Virus record (IMG/VR): IMGVR_UViG_3300037804_000543
Coordinates: 1-22,232 of that record
Strand: one strand, 5' to 3'
Origin: a virus
DNA: 22,232 nucleotides
Positions 8,175-22,232 of the stretch are shown here, piece by piece. The notes beneath the pieces are model-generated. The model ran no database searches. It had not been told where the DNA came from and saw nothing but the letters and a program-made list of their open reading frames with translations. Position 1 is the stretch's first letter. The number at the start of each line of letters is the position of its first letter. The translations under genes and the position numbers were made by a program.

Positions 8175-10058
8175 TTATTTGATAAACATTGGCTCGAAAG
8201 TGTCAAAAGACTCTTCTTTAACTTCTTTCATGTCGTAATAAATTTTAACCATCCAATTTCCCAATACTAAAGCCGAATAAGAGTCCTTTCTAGCCTTGTC
8301 TGGCCCGCTCTGCCTCCTGAGGTTGGCTGGAAGATCGAATGTTTGCGTTCCTTGCGGAGAGGTAGTAATTTGGATTAAAGCGCATTCATTCTTTGTTAAA
8401 TTAATCATATCGCTTTGGTGTTCAACAAAATCGATCATTAAAGCTTTTGAATTTTGCCTATCTTCGCCAACGACAGTCTTTAGAAACTTTAATTTTTGTA
8501 TAGGTATTTTTTTATTTGTTTGTTGCGTGTATGAGTCGTCTACAGCTCTAGATCCAAACCAAATCTTTTTATGGTCAAAATTAGCTTGAAGCAATTCGTT
8601 CGCTCTCCGTATCCATGCTGAGGAAGGCTTTTGTAAATGACAAATAACTTTCTTATCTAAATCATACTCCATTTTCGCGGCCATTAATTCTTTTTGATAT
8701 TTCTCAACATTATTAAAATCAGCAGTCAGGGTTCTAAGCTTAAGGTTGGCTTTTTTAAAAATTTCGCTTTCGTTGGCTGCATTTAAAAACTGAACCGCCC
8801 CGTTGTAATCTCCAATAACTGCAACGACATTAAAATTAGTTAATAGGTAGTGAAAATAAAAAATATGCTCTTTCATCCTTGTCCCCGCTAAAGCATAACT
8901 ATGAACTAAGGTCCCGCATTTTTTATCATCATTTAATTTTAACACTTGAATAGCAAAATCATCGCTATTCTCAGTTTCCGCCCAACTTGGGTCGAAAGCA
9001 ATAATATACTTAGAGTCTTCGTCTCCTTTAACCTCGACACTAGGTGAATCTCCATCGCTAACTGTACACATAGCCATCCTGGAGGTCTTAAAATACCCAC
9101 TGCTATCGTCTGTGAATTTTGCGCCAAACTCTCTCTCGAATTGACTTTGGCTCATTGAAGAGACCGCTTGGTCAATCAAGTTTTGATCGTATAACCTTTT
9201 TGGGGCACAATCATAAGAAAACTGCAAAATGTTCCGAGTCGCATTTGACCTACCGTCTGAACCTGCATAATTAGGGTTAAAAATTAAATCCTCAAAATTT
9301 TGATATAATTTATATAAATATTCAAATTTATAAGACGCAGAAGATAAAGCGACTAATTTATTATTAGGCCATTTATACCTACCCCCTTCTTCCATTTCTC
9401 CTTTTTCAATTAATTTAGTTTCTATATTATACAAATCCTCCCGCTCGGTAGGGTTTTCTACTACAGAAAGAAAGGGAAGTATAACTTCATTATAAATTCT
9501 TTCTGGCATTAATAAAAACTCATCTATAATAATTCTATGAAACCTAAAACCTCTAAGCTTAGATCCGTCCCCCAAAGGCAAAGCTCTAATTCTACTTTCT
9601 CCAATTTCCATTAACCACTCATCATTATTTTTAGATTTCTTTGTGATACATTGCGCTAAAAGTCTAGCTTCGGGCTTAGCAGCAATGTCTTCGATTTTTC
9701 TAAATATTTGCTTCGATTGCCTAAAAGACGCTGCAAGAATTCCGATCTCTACGCCCTGATTTAATATGGCGTCTAAAAACGCAAAAATTCCCGTAGAATA
9801 AGATTTTGACATTCCTCGACTCCAAACCCCTAAAGTGTAATCCGTATTAAACATAGCCTTTACAGCCATGTGTTGAAATGGAAATAAACGAACCCCCGCG
9901 ATTAAGTCTACAGCAAATGTTATGTTTTCCCTTAAGAATTTATACAGAAGCACCTTCGCCTCCTCCTCCTCTAAGAATCCTTTTTTCGACAGGATTTCTT
10001 TGTTTATATTCTGAAAAGATCTAACTCTCTCGCTCTGCTTTCCTATTTCCCAGGCCAT
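8175..10058 (-). CDS. terL: terminase large subunit
   Basis: A 627-aa DNA-packaging motor with both domains visible. The ATPase has a deviant Walker A, SRGMSKS (residues 80-86, Lys85), a Walker B, IIIDE (176-180, Asp179/Glu180), and a coupling-motif candidate, SSAS (239-242). The RNase H-like nuclease has acidic residues in IIAFDP (Asp356), VIGDYNG (Asp417) and KARKDSYSA (Asp592). It docks on the portal, translocates DNA into the head and cuts the concatemer. It overlaps the preceding small gene by 16 bp, so translational coupling is likely. It is followed by the portal gene. No family subtype (headful or cos) can be assigned from sequence alone. Confidence 0.95.
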   Translation of the reverse strand: MAWEIGKQSERVRSFQNINKEILSKKGFLEEEEAKVLLYKFLRENITFAVDLIAGVRLFPFQHMAVKAMFNTDYTLGVWSRGMSKSYSTGIFAFLDAILNQGVEIGILAASFRQSKQIFRKIEDIAAKPEARLLAQCITKKSKNNDEWLMEIGESRIRALPLGDGSKLRGFRFHRIIIDEFLLMPERIYNEVILPFLSVVENPTEREDLYNIETKLIEKGEMEEGGRYKWPNNKLVALSSASYKFEYLYKLYQNFEDLIFNPNYAGSDGRSNATRNILQFSYDCAPKRLYDQNLIDQAVSSMSQSQFEREFGAKFTDDSSGYFKTSRMAMCTVSDGDSPSVEVKGDEDSKYIIAFDPSWAETENSDDFAIQVLKLNDDKKCGTLVHSYALAGTRMKEHIFYFHYLLTNFNVVAVIGDYNGAVQFLNAANESEIFKKANLKLRTLTADFNNVEKYQKELMAAKMEYDLDKKVICHLQKPSSAWIRRANELLQANFDHKKIWFGSRAVDDSYTQQTNKKIPIQKLKFLKTVVGEDRQNSKALMIDFVEHQSDMINLTKNECALIQITTSPQGTQTFDLPANLRRQSGPDKARKDSYSALVLGNWMVKIYYDMKEVKEESFDTFEPMFIK

Positions 10059-16495: not shown

Positions 16496-16515
16496 TATGT
16501 AGGGTGGGAGGTATA

Positions 16516-16866
16516 ATGTCTCATAGTAAAATATTTAGTCATTTGGATGAGATAGAGGCTGTAGTTAATGCTCATGGGGTAGGAGCGAAACGAGCTTTCC
16601 TGAACAACGAAGATACCCCAACCAAATTAACCCAATTCGCTTACAGTAAGTTGCAGCCAGGAGAAATCTGTGGTTTGCATACTCATGTAACAATGGAAGA
16701 GTATTTTTTCTTTTTAAGTGGCACCGCAAAATATTTTGTAGGAGAAGAAGTATATAATGTAGAAAAGGGTTCTTTTTTAAGAATACCCGCGAATACTTAC
16801 CACGAGTTAAGAAACAATAATACTGAAGAGCTAGAAATAATATACTTCGGAATTGCAACAGACTAA
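16516..16866 (+). CDS. single-domain cupin (116 aa)
   Basis: A small cupin_2-type beta barrel. Motif 1 is GLHTHVTMEEYFFFLSG (His55, His57, Glu62, Gly69); motif 2 is PANTYHELRN with His96. Metal-binding residues are all present, so a metal site is likely. Members include sugar isomerases, dioxygenases and sensors, so the substrate is unknown. The start is the ATG at 16516 because GGGAGGT stands 3 nt before it; the frame also opens at a GTG at 16504 inside that ribosome site, which is rejected. This is one of the few genes here with a clear Shine-Dalgarno. TATAAT (about 16491-16496) nearby may be a -10. Confidence 0.8.
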   Translation: MSHSKIFSHLDEIEAVVNAHGVGAKRAFLNNEDTPTKLTQFAYSKLQPGEICGLHTHVTMEEYFFFLSGTAKYFVGEEVYNVEKGSFLRIPANTYHELRNNNTEELEIIYFGIATD

Positions 16867-16872
16867 TCTATA

Positions 16873-17019
16873 ATGAGGGATTTGGTCAAAGTTTTCACCG
16901 AAATGTTTTGGGGTGAGGAAATCGGAAATATTGGTTTTATTAAATTCTTGGTGACTTTTGTTTGTATATTTGTTACTATTAAATTTTTCATGTATATAAC
17001 TTCTGACAAAAAGAAATAA
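16873..17019 (+). CDS. small single-pass membrane protein (48 aa)
   Basis: A 48-aa frame 6 nt after the cupin stop. Residues 1-17 are amphipathic and acidic (MRDLVKVFTEMFWGEEIGN), residues 20-42 are one strongly hydrophobic helix (FIKFLVTFVCIFVTIKFFMY), and the end is charged (TSDKKK), which fits a single-pass membrane protein with a cytoplasmic basic tail. No family recognised; holin-like or host-membrane functions are possible, not shown. Real-gene support is the tight spacing, the clean membrane pattern and the absence of another frame in the gap. Confidence 0.55.
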   Translation: MRDLVKVFTEMFWGEEIGNIGFIKFLVTFVCIFVTIKFFMYITSDKKK

Positions 17020-17053
17020 AACTTTTACAATAGTATCTCATTAGGGTATTCTT

Positions 17054-17061
17054 GTGTAATA
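17054..17061 (+). promoter_or_regulatory. GTGTAATA start-proximal motif (exact copy)
   Basis: Exact GTGTAATA on the plus strand, with 12 nt between the GTGTA core and the ATG at 17071, in a 51-nt non-coding gap. No -35-like hexamer at the usual distance. Confidence 0.5.
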
Positions 17062-17070
17062 TTAGTTACC

Positions 17071-17262
17071 ATGATCGAATTTTATAACGTAAGAAAAAAA
17101 GAGAAAGTTTCAATCTCAAAAGATAAGGTTGAAAAAAAAGAATACAAGCGCACTTTAAAGAGTGGTAAAGAATCTATAAGATATGCTTTTGCAGCTGTAG
17201 ATGAAGATGGAACAAAGCTGACTAAGTTCTGCAGTAAAGCTGATTACGACTCGCTTAATTAA
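17071..17262 (+). CDS. small basic protein (63 aa)
   Basis: A 63-aa Lys-rich protein starting MIEFYNVRKKEKVSISKDKV, with YAFAAVDEDGTKLTKFCSKA in the second half. It looks like a compact beta-rich fold found as short stand-alone proteins in phages and bacteria (the LTKF-SK-ADYD ending is reminiscent), but I cannot name the family or its function. It has its own GTGTAATA motif 12 nt upstream and is followed by another one before the epimerase gene, so it is probably transcribed alone or as a leader of the sugar genes. Confidence 0.7.
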   Translation: MIEFYNVRKKEKVSISKDKVEKKEYKRTLKSGKESIRYAFAAVDEDGTKLTKFCSKADYDSLN

Positions 17263-17294
17263 ATTAAGTAATATTCTTTTTTTGTTTATAGGTT

Positions 17295-17302
17295 GTGTAA
17301 TA
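17295..17302 (+). promoter_or_regulatory. GTGTAATA start-proximal motif (exact copy)
   Basis: Exact GTGTAATA on the plus strand, with 10 nt between the GTGTA core and the ATG at 17310. It would start transcription of the sugar cluster 17310-19158. Confidence 0.5.
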
Positions 17303-17309
17303 CCTGTAA

Positions 17310-18197
17310 ATGGGTGGAAAAAGAATTTTAGTAACGGGAGGGTCTGGGTTCGTAGGGACTCATTTAATAAAAAATTTATTAAAAGAGCACCCCAAGAATA
17401 AAATAATTTCTATCGACGACTATTCCTCGGGAACAAAGGATAATAACCTTCAAGATCCAAGGGTCAAATATTACAATATTGGCACTTACGAATTAGAGCT
17501 TTTAGATAAGCATGCATATTTTGAGCCTAACGAAATTTATCATTTTGGAGAGTTCTCCAGAGTTGTAACATCTTTCGATAAATATGATCAATGTTGGAAG
17601 TCTAATATAATTGGTACCAACAAAGTGCTGCAATACGCAGTAAAACACAAAGCTAAATTTTTTTATAGCGCCTCTAGTAGCGGATTGGGTAATGGCGGAG
17701 AAGATGAATCCTTGTCTCCTTATGCTTGGATGAAATCTAAAAATGTCGAATTAATTAAAAATTATAATAAATGGTTTGGCCTACAATATAATATCTATTA
17801 TTTTTATAATGTTTATGGGCCTGGACAAATTGAATCAGGTGAATATGCGACTGTCATAGGGATTTTCGAAAGATTGTATAGAGAAAATAAACCTTTATCT
17901 GTGGTTAGCCCTGGGACTCAAACTAGGGATTTCACTCATATCCAAGATATTATTGAAGGGATCCAATTAGGGTCTAATGTTGAATCGAACGATGAATATT
18001 GGTTGGGAACGGGAAAACAAACCTCAATATTAGAAATATGCAAAACTTTTAAACGGGATTATGTTTTTATTCCCGAACGGATTGGAGAGCGGGTCGCTGG
18101 CGAGGCTCCAGTTGAAGCAACTATGGAAAAATTAAATTGGCAACCAAACAAACAACTATCAAATTATATAGAAGAAATAATTAATCATGAAAACTGA
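17310..18197 (+). CDS. NAD-dependent sugar epimerase/dehydratase (extended SDR)
   Basis: A 295-aa extended short-chain dehydrogenase. The NAD-binding GGSGFVG is at residues 10-16, an acidic residue after strand 2 (SIDDYSSG) favours NAD over NADP, the catalytic Tyr138-x3-Lys142 (YAWMK) has Ser120/Ser122 upstream (YSASSSG), and NVYGPGQ (167-173) and RDFTHIQDI are sugar-binding segments of UDP-glucose 4-epimerases and NDP-sugar dehydratases. It interconverts or dehydrates a nucleotide sugar in the cytoplasm. Length is slightly short for the family (310-350). It overlaps the ManC-type cupin by 11 bp, so the two are coupled and likely act in one pathway, with the dehydrogenase at 11182. Exact substrate unknown. 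Confidence 0.88.
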   Translation: MGGKRILVTGGSGFVGTHLIKNLLKEHPKNKIISIDDYSSGTKDNNLQDPRVKYYNIGTYELELLDKHAYFEPNEIYHFGEFSRVVTSFDKYDQCWKSNIIGTNKVLQYAVKHKAKFFYSASSSGLGNGGEDESLSPYAWMKSKNVELIKNYNKWFGLQYNIYYFYNVYGPGQIESGEYATVIGIFERLYRENKPLSVVSPGTQTRDFTHIQDIIEGIQLGSNVESNDEYWLGTGKQTSILEICKTFKRDYVFIPERIGERVAGEAPVEATMEKLNWQPNKQLSNYIEEIINHEN

Positions 18198-18546
18198 AGA
18201 GATAGACGGTCCAATTAGGCCTTGGGGACATTACGAAATCCTTTTGGATGAAAGTTATTGTAAAGTTAAACGCATTGTTGTTAAGCCTGAGTGCAGACTA
18301 AGCTACCAGTATCATTACAAAAGAAAAGAGGCGTGGACTGTTGTTCAAGGAGTAGCCACAGTAACTGTTAATGGCGTGATGAAAGATTATTTTCCAGGGG
18401 AAACAGTTCTAATAGGTTTTCAAGATAAACATCGCATGGCTAATAATAGTAAATTAGAAAATATGATTTTAATTGAAGTTCAAACAGGTTCGTATTTTGG
18501 AGAAGACGATATCGTTAGAATAGAAGATGATTTTAATAGAGAATAA
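18187..18546 (+). CDS. stand-alone ManC-type cupin (mannose-6-phosphate isomerase type II domain)
   Basis: A 119-aa protein matching the C-terminal isomerase domain of bifunctional ManC/AlgA enzymes over nearly its full length: RPWGHYEIL (11-19), KVKRIVVKPECRLSYQYHYK with metal ligands Gln41, His43 and Glu48, His82 in DKHRMAN, and the diagnostic end IEVQTGSYFGEDDIVRIEDD. That domain interconverts fructose-6-phosphate and mannose-6-phosphate on the way to GDP-mannose. The GDP-mannose pyrophosphorylase half is absent here; such stand-alone cupins also occur in phage and capsule clusters. It starts inside the epimerase gene (11-bp overlap). Confidence 0.88.
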   Translation: MKTEEIDGPIRPWGHYEILLDESYCKVKRIVVKPECRLSYQYHYKRKEAWTVVQGVATVTVNGVMKDYFPGETVLIGFQDKHRMANNSKLENMILIEVQTGSYFGEDDIVRIEDDFNRE

Positions 18547-18552
18547 AAGTTC

Positions 18553-19158
18553 ATGCGAGGACTCTTGAAGATATCATATTTTATTTTGTTTTTCCTTTCG
18601 GGGTGCAACAATTTATCCAAAAATAAAAAGGATAGCCTTCTGGTTAATGATCTTGGGCCTGAAATAATCAAAAATACTGGGGCCGCTTTATTAGGTATGC
18701 CTAGCATCGCATACTGCTATCCTGGGCTAACAGATAAGGACGCTCGAGAAAGTCTCTCAGAACCATTAAAACGCGCGGGGAACGCGATATTTCCAGACAC
18801 ACACTACATTCGTATAAAATATCAATCATTTGTCACGTTTAGTGATTGGTTTCAGAAAATAACCTCTCAACTAAATAACGAAGAAATAGGAGATGGCTAC
18901 GATTGCGACAATTATTCTTTTTTATATAAATCTTTATTATCGGTTAGCTCTTATAAAAATCAAAACTTGCGAGAGGTATTAGTTGGGGTAATCTACGTCA
19001 ACCAAAAACATTCTTTTGGAGGCATTCCTTCGGGACAATTCTACCATGCATTAAATATAATTTGTACTGAGTCGGGTTGGTATGTATACGAGCCTCAAAC
19101 AGGAGAATTTGATAAAATAGAAAATTACCCAAATAACATTTTGTGGTTTATTTTTTAA
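18553..19158 (+). CDS. lipoprotein with Cys/His/Glu hydrolase-like domain
   Basis: A 201-aa predicted lipoprotein: hydrophobic N-terminus and lipobox LSGC (Cys18). Residues 110-185 carry a pattern of papain/transglutaminase-like enzymes: GYDCDNYSFLYKSL with Cys118, GQFYHALNII with His165, and YVYEPQTGEF with Glu180. The EPQT segment is typical of the MOA-lectin-related cysteine protease group, which is my best guess; catalytic activity is not shown. It would sit in the periplasm attached to a membrane and might cut or cross-link protein or peptidoglycan, or block other phages. It follows the cupin by 6 nt with no clear ribosome site and lies among sugar genes. Confidence 0.65.
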   Translation: MRGLLKISYFILFFLSGCNNLSKNKKDSLLVNDLGPEIIKNTGAALLGMPSIAYCYPGLTDKDARESLSEPLKRAGNAIFPDTHYIRIKYQSFVTFSDWFQKITSQLNNEEIGDGYDCDNYSFLYKSLLSVSSYKNQNLREVLVGVIYVNQKHSFGGIPSGQFYHALNIICTESGWYVYEPQTGEFDKIENYPNNILWFIF

Positions 19159-19167
19159 AATATACTG

Positions 19168-19182
19168 TATTATATAGTATAA
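19168..19182 (+). promoter_or_regulatory. AT-rich promoter-like 15-mer (copy 2)
   Basis: TATTATATAGTATAA, identical to 2574-2588 (minus). Here it runs into the ATG at 19182 and lies within TATACT...AGTATA arms (19161-19181). If a promoter, the message would be leaderless or the true start would lie further in; an operator is an alternative. Confidence 0.35.
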
Positions 19183-19622
19183 TGAAATTTTTATTAGAAA
19201 AAGACAGGGCGACTAAAGATATCGTTGCGGTGAGTGGATATTTTGACCCTTTACATATTGGGCATTTAGAATATTTAGAAATGGCAAGTAAATTAGGTAA
19301 TTATTTATGTGTTATAGTTAATAATGATTACCAATGTAGGCTAAAAAAAGGGAAATCTTTCATGCCTGAGCAAGATAGATTGAAAATTATTCAATCTTTA
19401 AAGATGGTTGACTACGCCATGATCTCCGTGGATCAAGACCGCACAGTTTGTATGAGCCTTGAGTTTTTGAAGCCGAAAATTTTTGCCAATGGGGGGGATA
19501 GGCATAATCAAGAAATTCCTGAAGCGGAAACCTGTCGAAGATTTGATATTCAAATAGTTGACGGGCTGGGAAATAAAATACGATCTTCTTCTTCTCTGAC
19601 TGGGCTAAAAGAAAAAACTTAA
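19182..19622 (+). CDS. HIGH-motif nucleotidyltransferase (RfaE/TagD-like)
   Basis: A 146-aa cytidylyltransferase-superfamily enzyme: SGYFDPLHIGH with the nucleotide-binding HIGH (residues 25-28), FANGGDR (102-107) and the closing KIRSSSSL (132-139), equivalent to the ISSTxxR motif. NGGDR plus this ending resembles heptose-1-phosphate adenylyltransferases (HldE C-terminal type) and glycerol-3-phosphate cytidylyltransferases. It would activate a sugar or polyol phosphate with ATP or CTP for glycan assembly. The start is the ATG at 19182; the frame extends upstream to 19143 but that would lie inside the lipoprotein gene. It ends 2 nt from the convergent gene at 19625, with no terminator visible between them. 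Confidence 0.85.
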   Translation: MKFLLEKDRATKDIVAVSGYFDPLHIGHLEYLEMASKLGNYLCVIVNNDYQCRLKKGKSFMPEQDRLKIIQSLKMVDYAMISVDQDRTVCMSLEFLKPKIFANGGDRHNQEIPEAETCRRFDIQIVDGLGNKIRSSSSLTGLKEKT

Positions 19623-19624
19623 CG

Positions 19625-20668
19625 TCAGTCGAGCACGGGAGATACAATCTTATTGTATCCAGCATTAACGCTATCTGCTCGAACCACGAAAAAGGATTCT
19701 CCTGACTGAAATACGTGATCGTCGATTTGCCCCGTATTTAAGTTGATCCAGTTGTTTACATCGTGATAATATGATACCCATGCCGATCCAGACCAAGCTA
19801 AAATATAATCTGCCTGAGAGCTATTTTGAGATTTATTCCAGTTGGAGCTAACATCTATAAGATCGCTTATTTTTGATTCTACTGGAAATGGATTAGACAT
19901 TAAAAATTTACCTTCTGACCCAGGAAGATAAGACTGAACAAACTGCGGGACATAACCAGAAAAACTTAGAGTTAAAGGAGCAGTGCCTTTTCTTTGGTAA
20001 ATTAATCCTTCATCAGGATAAATGATCGTTCCTCCTTGGTCAGATCTAGTTCCAAATGTTTGCCATTTGTCGTTATGATAAAAATAAGTCTTCCATCCAT
20101 ATGTAGTCCATATTAAAATATTATCACCAATACTTGGCGTTCCTTTCTCTCCATGAAAATCTTCTCCAGTACCAAACATTCCAGCCAAAGTGTTAGCTTT
20201 GATTATGTCAATAGAATCATATGCTTGAAAATACTGGCTAACTAGATTCGCTTCTAGGCCTATTGTAACATCGTTTTCTACATTCGCTAGAACCAAAAAC
20301 ACTAAGCCGTTATATTCTTCTTGCCCATCTCGCAACCTTAAAAAATGAGGTTCCTGAGCGAGAACGTCATCTTCGTAAGATTCCTCTTCGTACTGACCAA
20401 TGAGATCGCTCAATGTTAATGTTGATCCTATGATTGTTTCTATGACGCCCGAGTAAACAGCTTCTTGATTATAACCGCTCGAAAGAAATGTATAACTAGG
20501 TGTCGAATCTTCTGCTGCCTCCAATATATCAATATTAGTGACTCCTATAGCTTGCGTGGCAGCCTCGCTTCCCCAAAAATATTCAGCGCTTAGATCTTTC
20601 AGTTGAAAACTGCCTAAAGTCGCAGCTATTATCATAAGTGCAAAATATAATTTGAATCGCATACTCAT
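19625..20668 (-). CDS. secreted TIGR02597-like protein
   Basis: A 347-aa secreted protein with an N-terminal signal peptide (MSMRFKLYFALMIIAATLGS). Two internal repeats, about residues 182-228 and 287-332, share DxILxW-x5-W-x2-Y-(F/Y)-H...W...G(E/L)...R. The intermediate phrase GLIYQRKGTAPLTLSFSGYV and SNPFPV match my memory of the TIGR02597 family, which I associate with Verrucomicrobiota exported proteins of unknown function. In a phage it is unusual and probably acquired from the host. Start: the ATG at 20668 or 20662; a GTG at 20680 coincides with the GTGTATAC motif and is rejected. The gene converges on the nucleotidyltransferase. Confidence 0.7.
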   Translation of the reverse strand: MSMRFKLYFALMIIAATLGSFQLKDLSAEYFWGSEAATQAIGVTNIDILEAAEDSTPSYTFLSSGYNQEAVYSGVIETIIGSTLTLSDLIGQYEEESYEDDVLAQEPHFLRLRDGQEEYNGLVFLVLANVENDVTIGLEANLVSQYFQAYDSIDIIKANTLAGMFGTGEDFHGEKGTPSIGDNILIWTTYGWKTYFYHNDKWQTFGTRSDQGGTIIYPDEGLIYQRKGTAPLTLSFSGYVPQFVQSYLPGSEGKFLMSNPFPVESKISDLIDVSSNWNKSQNSSQADYILAWSGSAWVSYYHDVNNWINLNTGQIDDHVFQSGESFFVVRADSVNAGYNKIVSPVLD

Positions 20669-20672
20669 TATA

Positions 20673-20680
20673 GTATACAC
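20673..20680 (-). promoter_or_regulatory. GTGTA motif before the secreted protein
   Basis: GTGTATAC on the minus strand; the core is 7 nt from the ATG at 20668 and 13 nt from the ATG at 20662. If other spacings (9-12 nt) are a guide, the true start may be 20662. Confidence 0.45.
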
Positions 20681-20711
20681 TTTTCAAGCTAAAATTCAAG
20701 GGCTAAAAATG

Positions 20712-21614
20712 TTATCTGCTTGACGGCCTTCTGGAGCCATCTTTTTCAACTTCCTTTTTAGGGCGAGGAGGGGGACGTCTTTCGGGTCGAGCCTTATCAG
20801 CTACAGAAGATTCTTTGCGAGCGGAAACGTGATCTCTTAATTGCTTCTGGATATCCTTCAAATCATCATGCAAGGCCTTTTGTTCCTCCTTGAAAGAATC
20901 AAAAAGATCCTTTCTCTCTTCCCCTTTAGCTTCTTGCAAGGAATTTACAAATTGCTTTTTACTTTCATTTAATTTTTTAATTTTATCTGCATGAGATTTA
21001 TGTAAATCTTTAACTTCTTGAGGGATTACAGGTTTGATAGGCCTTTCTGGTTTATTTTTATTTAAATTTTCTTTAATAGATTCCGCTAATTCTTTATGGT
21101 TATCGAATCTTTGTTGATTATTCTTGCGAAATGAGTCTACGGCTTCTTTCACCTTTTTGCGGGTAGGGTTTTCTAGGTTTTTAATCACCACCTTCAATTC
21201 TTCGCGAAGCTTTTCTTTTTCAAGTTTATAAGAATTCATTTGATTTTTTAATTCATCTGGCAATTCAGGACGAGCAGGGCGAGTAGGCTTTTCGATTTTA
21301 TTAGGCTTCTCTTTATCTGATGTTGGCCTGACGGGTTTGATAGGTTTTGGCCTTGGCTTAGGCTTCTCAACTTCAAGACGCTTTTTTCCCGAAGGTTTTC
21401 CTGGCCCAGCTTGGAATCGATCATCAACTCGATCTCCATCAGAATCAACCCAATTTTTAATTTTCGGGCCATCAACTACATAACCTTCCTTGTCCAGCCA
21501 TTGACCAAATAAATTAGGTTTTTCAATGGAAGGCTTAGATATAGACGGGCGCTTTGCCCCAATGCTCGAAACGATAAAGCTAAAAGACAAAAGGTAGATA
21601 AATAATTTTTTCAT
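20712..21614 (-). CDS. secreted Pro/Lys-rich coiled-coil protein with EF-hand-like motif
   Basis: A 300-aa exported protein. The signal peptide (residues 1-20, MKKLFIYLLSFSFIVSSIGA) is followed by a 10-residue repeat, WLDKEGYVVD (39-48) and WVDSDGDRVD (55-64). The second is a DxDxD calcium-loop pattern (Asp57, Asp59, Asp61). Then come a Pro/Lys-rich spacer (80-115), two long helical coiled-coil segments (about 120-185 and 200-268) separated by KPERPIKPVIP, and a basic Pro/Arg tail. The pattern resembles exported proteins of planctomycete/verrucomicrobial type rather than phage structural proteins. It lies with the other secreted gene, so both may be host-derived. Function unknown; a cell-surface or cell-wall role is inferred. 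Confidence 0.75.
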   Translation of the reverse strand: MKKLFIYLLSFSFIVSSIGAKRPSISKPSIEKPNLFGQWLDKEGYVVDGPKIKNWVDSDGDRVDDRFQAGPGKPSGKKRLEVEKPKPRPKPIKPVRPTSDKEKPNKIEKPTRPARPELPDELKNQMNSYKLEKEKLREELKVVIKNLENPTRKKVKEAVDSFRKNNQQRFDNHKELAESIKENLNKNKPERPIKPVIPQEVKDLHKSHADKIKKLNESKKQFVNSLQEAKGEERKDLFDSFKEEQKALHDDLKDIQKQLRDHVSARKESSVADKARPERRPPPRPKKEVEKDGSRRPSSR

Positions 21615-21745: not shown

Positions 21746-21928
21746 TTAAGGCCTCCAATTCAAACTCCACTTGAAACTCCTAACAGAGCTAATTTCCTCC
21801 TGTTTCTCTTTGGGTAGGCACGACACGCAAGAACGAAGATTACATTGCAGCGTGTCGATTAAAACTAAAAGCTCTTCAACCTCCTTGCCCTTATCGGACA
21901 ATTGTTTCCTCAACATCTTATCAGACAT
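21746..21928 (-). CDS. small hypothetical protein (60 aa)
   Basis: A 60-aa frame 9 nt after the stop of the nucleotidyltransferase. It starts MSDKMLRKQLSDKGKEVEELL, has a short amphipathic helix, a cysteine-rich middle (CNLRSCVSCLPKEK) and a basic aromatic end. A second ATG (MLRK) is an alternative start. Close spacing and same strand suggest it is co-transcribed; no family recognised. The 131-nt gap downstream holds no gene I can support. Confidence 0.55.
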   Translation of the reverse strand: MSDKMLRKQLSDKGKEVEELLVLIDTLQCNLRSCVSCLPKEKQEEISSVRSFKWSLNWRP

Positions 21929-21937
21929 TCGTCAAAT

Positions 21938-22232
21938 CTATTCGGGGCGCCATCCAGGCTCGCGCTTTTGACTCTCATCAACCGCTTGGCCGTCTTTGTT
22001 TATCTTGCCTGCTCTAATTTTCGTTGCAGAAATATTTTGCAATTCCTTCGAAAGTTCTAACTGTTCTATGTTATACCCAACAGTTCTTCCGTAGAAAAAA
22101 TCAGTAATATTAGGAATTTCAATAACTTTAACTTTATCCCCAAACTCTTTGCATGCTGACATAATGTTATTTCTCACTTGATTAAAATCGTAAGGATTAG
22201 ATTCGTCAATTCCAGCCACATCCCTTAGGGCT
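21938..22232 (-). CDS. nucleotidyltransferase, 3' end only (5' partial)
   Basis: The C-terminal part of a nicotinamide-nucleotide adenylyltransferase/cytidylyltransferase-like protein; the frame stays open to the right edge, reading ALRDVAGIDESNPYDF before the GTG at 22219, which is not the true start. Family signs are LRD...NPYDFNQVRNNI, KVKVIEIPNITDFFYGRTVGY and the closing motif ISATKIRAG, equal to ISxTxxR, which holds the nucleotide triphosphate. Phages carry such enzymes for NAD salvage or sugar activation. The catalytic HxGH part is outside the window. Distinct from the gene at 19182. Confidence 0.75.
   Translation of the reverse strand, partial: ALRDVAGIDESNPYDFNQVRNNIMSACKEFGDKVKVIEIPNITDFFYGRTVGYNIEQLELSKELQNISATKIRAGKINKDGQAVDESQKREPGWRPE

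Follow-up and report, generated by a model that had tools for sequence, protein, structure and literature searches.

Introduction

Why would a phage carry, side by side, two genes for putatively exported proteins that resemble those of bacteria? The question is raised by one end of a 22.2 kb virus record (IMG/VR IMGVR_UViG_3300037804_000543, positions 1–22,232; the window in what follows). The phages of Verrucomicrobiota and their PVC relatives have been little described, even though such bacteria are common in water, and exported genes provide a sequence-based clue to the host of a large uncultured phage clade, as well as a testable candidate set of envelope-modifying genes. Here, we describe the two protein families (proteins 1 and 2), their distribution in bacteria and their surroundings in related phages, and propose a role for the pair in the envelope of a probable Verrucomicrobiota or PVC host.

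Results

Organization of the window and its phage clade

The window consists of a minus-strand phage core (2.6–15.6 kb) and an accessory region at 16–22 kb (Table 1). Both genes of the pair are found on the minus strand where a sequence-only reading of the window had placed them, with 43 nt between them, and the products have a Sec-type N-terminus (protein 1) and a signal peptide (protein 2), in line with the export that reading had assigned to both. The lipoprotein, which it did not mention, is a third exported-type protein in the window; its gene has homologues in two TerL-clade phages (L213 and L214) and in L018.

Table 1. Features of the window, with positions and strands.
Feature	Position	Strand	Remarks
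Conserved phage core	2653–15556	-	Putative capsid and decoration proteins, portal, terminase, PhoH and others
Terminase large subunit (TerL)	8175–10058	-	Within the conserved core
Sugar-pathway genes	16513–18546	+	Cupin, NAD-dependent epimerase/dehydratase, mannose-6-phosphate isomerase-type cupin
Lipoprotein	18553–19158	+	LSGC lipobox; weak match to lectin C-terminal cysteine-peptidase-like domains
RfaE/HldE-type nucleotidyltransferase	19182–19622	+	Phage flank
Protein 1, putatively exported, TIGR02597-type	19625–20668	-	347 aa
Protein 2, putatively exported, Pro/Lys-rich helical repeats	20712–21614	-	300 aa
p21746, small ORF	21746–21928	-	Homologue adjoins a p21938-type gene in phage L188
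p21938, fused APS-kinase-like/nucleotidyltransferase	21938–22231	-	C-terminal part of the gene; phage flank

TerL has relatives in a clade of at least 96 members in IMG/VR, the best 80 of which are about 60–70% identical, whereas GenBank phages gave distant matches alone (about 24–29% identity); the clade is therefore regarded as uncultured. One TerL relative is carried by a 163 kb contig (L005, also designated G002).

Three further observations concern the phage genes. A partial protein at 3–1706, encoded on the strand opposite to the head genes, contains a weak von Willebrand A domain and has no counterpart in the related phage loci. A TTGTGTAATAnT-like motif is located just 5′ of several phage genes (2136–2147, 12060–12071, 17052–17063 and 17293–17304 of the window) and GTGTAATAT is enriched in related phages (50 versus 4 for the reversed motif); the start of the protein 1 gene shows a partial match alone to the promoter-like phage motif. 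Finally, a phage contig placed in a Verrucomicrobiales MAG encodes a TerL (L085:8162–11224) with an in-frame insertion of ∼400 residues, which bears LAGLIDADG-like motifs and has intein-type ends (C...HN/S).

Protein 1 is a diverged relative of the TIGR02597 family

A resemblance of protein 1 to TIGR02597, suggested in the sequence-only reading, is borne out by profile comparison. The NCBI TIGR02597 model (positions 25–290) aligns to residues 58–296 with an E value of 7.8e-8 and a score of 31.6 bits, below the curated cut-off of 50 bits, as are the scores of several host relatives. Against a profile of 14 host relatives built without protein 1, the score is 173 bits, compared with 9.6 for the best of 500 shuffles; on this basis of sequence similarity, we conclude that protein 1 is a true but diverged, full-length TIGR02597-type relative. 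With protein 1 as the query, the best host match has an E value of 8.5e-24 at 28% identity. The host relatives align over the whole protein and share with it conserved G, W and D columns as well as two W/Y-rich repeats of the pattern D-x-I-L-x-W...W...Y...W, preceded by a short N-terminal strand region. The N-terminus (MSMRFKLYFALMIIAATLGSF) is hydrophobic and of the Sec type by inspection and by a simple pattern test, and an alternative GTG start is possible at 20680. In a tree, protein 1 occupies a long branch inside the family with no firmly supported neighbour. No close viral relative was found in IMG/VR or among the GenBank phages searched, neither protein 1 nor its relatives match a Pfam family, the solved structures searched in following up the exported pair gave no match and a single-sequence structure model yielded no usable fold (pLDDT 31).

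The family was counted in genomes of three phyla, each sample being centred on one MAG (Verrucomicrobiales, Gemmataceae or Flavobacteriaceae), from the label of which the phylum name was taken. It is present in 42 of 289 Verrucomicrobiota-phylum genomes (24 over the cut-off), in five of 149 Planctomycetota-phylum genomes (one over the cut-off) and in none of 198 from the Bacteroidota phylum (p = 1e-10 and 2e-4).

In Verrucomicrobiota-phylum genomes, TIGR02597 genes have a regular partner. A gene with a PEP-CTERM-type C-terminus lies directly downstream in 25 of 41 non-redundant host loci (L087–L118 and L203–L206), and complete ORFs that start within 100 nt downstream of TIGR02597-family genes are of PEP-CTERM type in 25 of 32 cases, compared with 4 of 173 elsewhere, with assignments made mostly by pattern and checked with models at four loci. 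Three of these four are over the Pfam PEP-CTERM cut-off and three pass or reach that of TIGR02595; locus L206 is under the former and over the latter. PEP-CTERM proteins, first noticed in Verrucomicrobium spinosum, have been linked to exosortase and to exopolysaccharide (PMC1569441). The phage gene lacks such a partner, its downstream neighbour being the convergent nucleotidyltransferase gene, and neither a PEP-CTERM motif nor an exosortase gene was found in the window. The phage copy is thus an orphan of the host PEP-CTERM cassette. A literature search found no paper on TIGR02597 or on this cassette, and the host comparison gives the uncharacterized family a context, as the regular upstream partner of PEP-CTERM surface proteins.

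Protein 2 is a helical-repeat protein with a signal peptide

Protein 2 had been described as a surface protein with a signal peptide, Pro/Lys coiled coils and a calcium repeat. The signal peptide (MKKLFIYLLSFSFIVSSIGA) is clear, and Pro/Lys-rich helices are present and form two internal repeats of ∼65 residues (score 108, compared with 37 ± 7 and a maximum of 65 for shuffles). The calcium repeat reduces to a single DSDGDRVDD loop, and the tandem DxDxDGxxD units of a thrombospondin type 3-like calcium repeat are absent. None of the family models searched fits protein 2. In BLAST searches, the helical region has relatives among proteins of Verrucomicrobiota-phylum genomes; the best of these are exported, comparable in size to protein 2 and share its ∼65-residue repeat and Pro-rich linkers. 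Alignment scores against the host relatives exceed those of all shuffles and lie far above heptad-block (seven-residue) ones. Protein 2 thus has the marks of an unnamed exported family defined by a signal peptide, ∼65-residue repeats with a hydrophobic/eeR...fR pattern and Pro-rich linkers. No close viral relative was found in the IMG/VR search. At E ≤ 1e-3, relatives occur in five of 231 Verrucomicrobiota-phylum genomes and in none of 247 others (0/124 Planctomycetota and 0/123 Bacteroidota; p = 0.026). Protein 2 is low-complexity helix, and its phylum preference is modest, with p = 0.08 at E ≤ 0.01. In two genomes (L200:5240–10325 and L201:4892–9677), the host helical-repeat gene is followed by genes for a secreted protein, a histidine kinase and a PQQ-type propeller.

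Exported proteins in the corresponding neighbourhood of related phages

Both flanks of the pair are phage genes. The RfaE-type gene on the left is 63–65% identical to genes in five phage contigs, and p21938 on the right has 32 relatives in IMG/VR contigs (63–76% identity). In five contigs (L167, L170, L173, L174 and L183), a gene for an exported protein of ∼215 residues lies between the rfaE-like and p21938 genes, in the place occupied here by the pair. This protein occurs in 15 of the 32 p21938 contigs and in the TerL-clade contig G002 (e.g. L167:7026–7676 and L213:11952–12584). It was modelled as an outer-membrane barrel (pLDDT 86) with the KdgM porin as the closest match (E = 3e-6), and from the model we are confident in describing it as a predicted porin-like outer-membrane barrel. 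Nine of the 32 contigs encode DUF1501 proteins, in six cases right next to p21938, and one contig encodes a PSCyt2-PSD1 protein; DUF1501 and PSCyt2-PSD1 sites in the phage contigs are at L195:10285–13860 and L167:10343–11620. PVC bacteria typically carry PSCyt/PSD domains (PMC5615132), and DUF1501 clusters are found preferentially in those PVC bacteria that have intracellular membranes (PMC4452313).

G002 and L189, which each carry both gene types, link the TerL clade to the p21938 contigs; G002 also has homologues of p21746 and of the lipoprotein gene. The families of proteins 1 and 2 are absent from the other phage loci compared, and since none of 43 TerL-clade records searched contains TIGR02597, the pair is not a trait of the clade.

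Discussion

A possible role in the host envelope

Around the same landmark genes, related phages differ in which exported host-type envelope proteins they encode. The simplest account is that these proteins act in the envelope of a PVC host. Envelope remodelling, proposed in the sequence-only reading, is plausible and is helped by the barrel and DUF1501 proteins in the same neighbourhood of related phages. In the scheme that we favour, and regard as about as likely as not, the two are accessory genes expressed during infection; the Sec pathway of the host would export their products, which would end up in its envelope or surface layer. As an orphan of a host protein normally encoded upstream of a PEP-CTERM (exosortase-sorted) protein, protein 1 would most likely occupy or mimic a site in that surface system, and protein 2 would most likely serve as a spacer or adaptor in the periplasm or at the surface. 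The pair may alter surface access during infection, for example by preventing superinfection or adsorption to debris. Phage genes for exported envelope proteins are best known for superinfection exclusion; the present results fit it and other envelope roles alike.

A broader and more tentative idea, which we consider somewhat doubtful, is that a clade of large PVC phages swaps host-type proteins of the envelope that are exported (porin-like barrel, DUF1501, PSCyt2/PSD1, TIGR02597 and helical-repeat) in a variable region around the conserved kinase/nucleotidyltransferase gene, with the orphan TIGR02597 protein here targeting the exosortase/PEP-CTERM surface system.

The pair might instead leave adsorption unaffected and serve to stabilize a slowly dying host's envelope or to keep progeny within a surface matrix. 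The pairing of host TIGR02597 genes with PEP-CTERM genes, whose products are linked to exopolysaccharide (PMC1569441), would suit such a task, and the histidine kinase near the host helical-repeat genes in two genomes would fit a role in envelope stress; however, phage genes known to block receptors or alter the envelope are brought to mind by the porin-like barrels that related phages encode, and we give this reading about half the weight of a change in surface access.

Identity of the host

The clue to a Verrucomicrobiota host that had been seen in the pair is upheld by the distribution of both families. We read the window as part of a large aquatic tailed phage from an uncultured clade. The distribution of TIGR02597, together with the PVC-type exported proteins of related phages, supports a probable host in Verrucomicrobiota or another PVC-group bacterium. 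The MAGs that hold TerL relatives are mixed (Verrucomicrobiales, Flavobacteriaceae, Halobacteriovorax and 'uncultured bacterium'), so that either this signal is ambiguous or the clade has several hosts, and the host is accordingly probable rather than proven. A phage of, for example, Bacteroidota could have taken the genes from a Verrucomicrobiota member of its community, as the Halobacteriovorax MAG and a Flavobacteriaceae MAG with two different TerL contigs (L084, L152 and L153) might suggest. The latter looks like binning noise or multiple infections. Such a host is unlikely given that one TerL relative lies in a Verrucomicrobiales MAG, that several independent PVC-type exported families occur in the clade and that exported proteins usually need to work in the envelope of their own host.

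Origin of the pair

W/Y-rich and helical repeats are also found in phage fibres, and the pair could be virion-associated proteins (fibre, adhesin or neck decoration) that resemble host surface proteins by chance. The Sec-type N-termini, the homology to exported host proteins and the absence of a counterpart in the conserved virion module of relatives make this improbable. Transfer from a host as one unit, as first suggested, is not supported: in none of the host genomes examined do genes of the two families adjoin, lying instead far apart or on separate contigs; the phage proteins share no more than about 20–28% identity with their host counterparts; and the codon comparison with neighbouring genes, which that suggestion had called for, matches the pair to the phage core (r = 0.86–0.87). 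For these reasons, we consider them to be old or fast-evolving phage genes. Although the pair sits close to the contig's right end and lacks close viral relatives, an assembly chimera or host contamination is very improbable and largely refuted by the phage genes on both sides, the phage-like GC content and codon use and the low identity to host proteins.

Comparison with known systems

Protein 1 shares with the TIGR02597 family (NCBIfam, function unknown) the signal peptide, an N-terminal PVG-like strand and the two W/Y-rich repeats, and differs in its score below the curated cut-off, its long branch, its encoding by a phage and its lack of an adjoining PEP-CTERM gene. With respect to the PEP-CTERM/exosortase surface-protein system (TIGR02595), the genes for host relatives of protein 1 immediately precede PEP-CTERM genes, whereas the window has neither the motif nor an exosortase gene. 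The planctomycete-specific PSCyt/PSD and DUF1501 proteins of PVC bacteria are absent from the window and may be just a functional analogue; related phage contigs do encode exported PVC-type proteins close to the shared landmark gene. Compared with phage-encoded outer-membrane porins and superinfection-exclusion proteins (moron genes), the pair belongs to different protein families and may affect adsorption; it likewise consists of accessory genes for exported envelope proteins, and relatives of the window phage encode a porin-like barrel near the same landmark genes.
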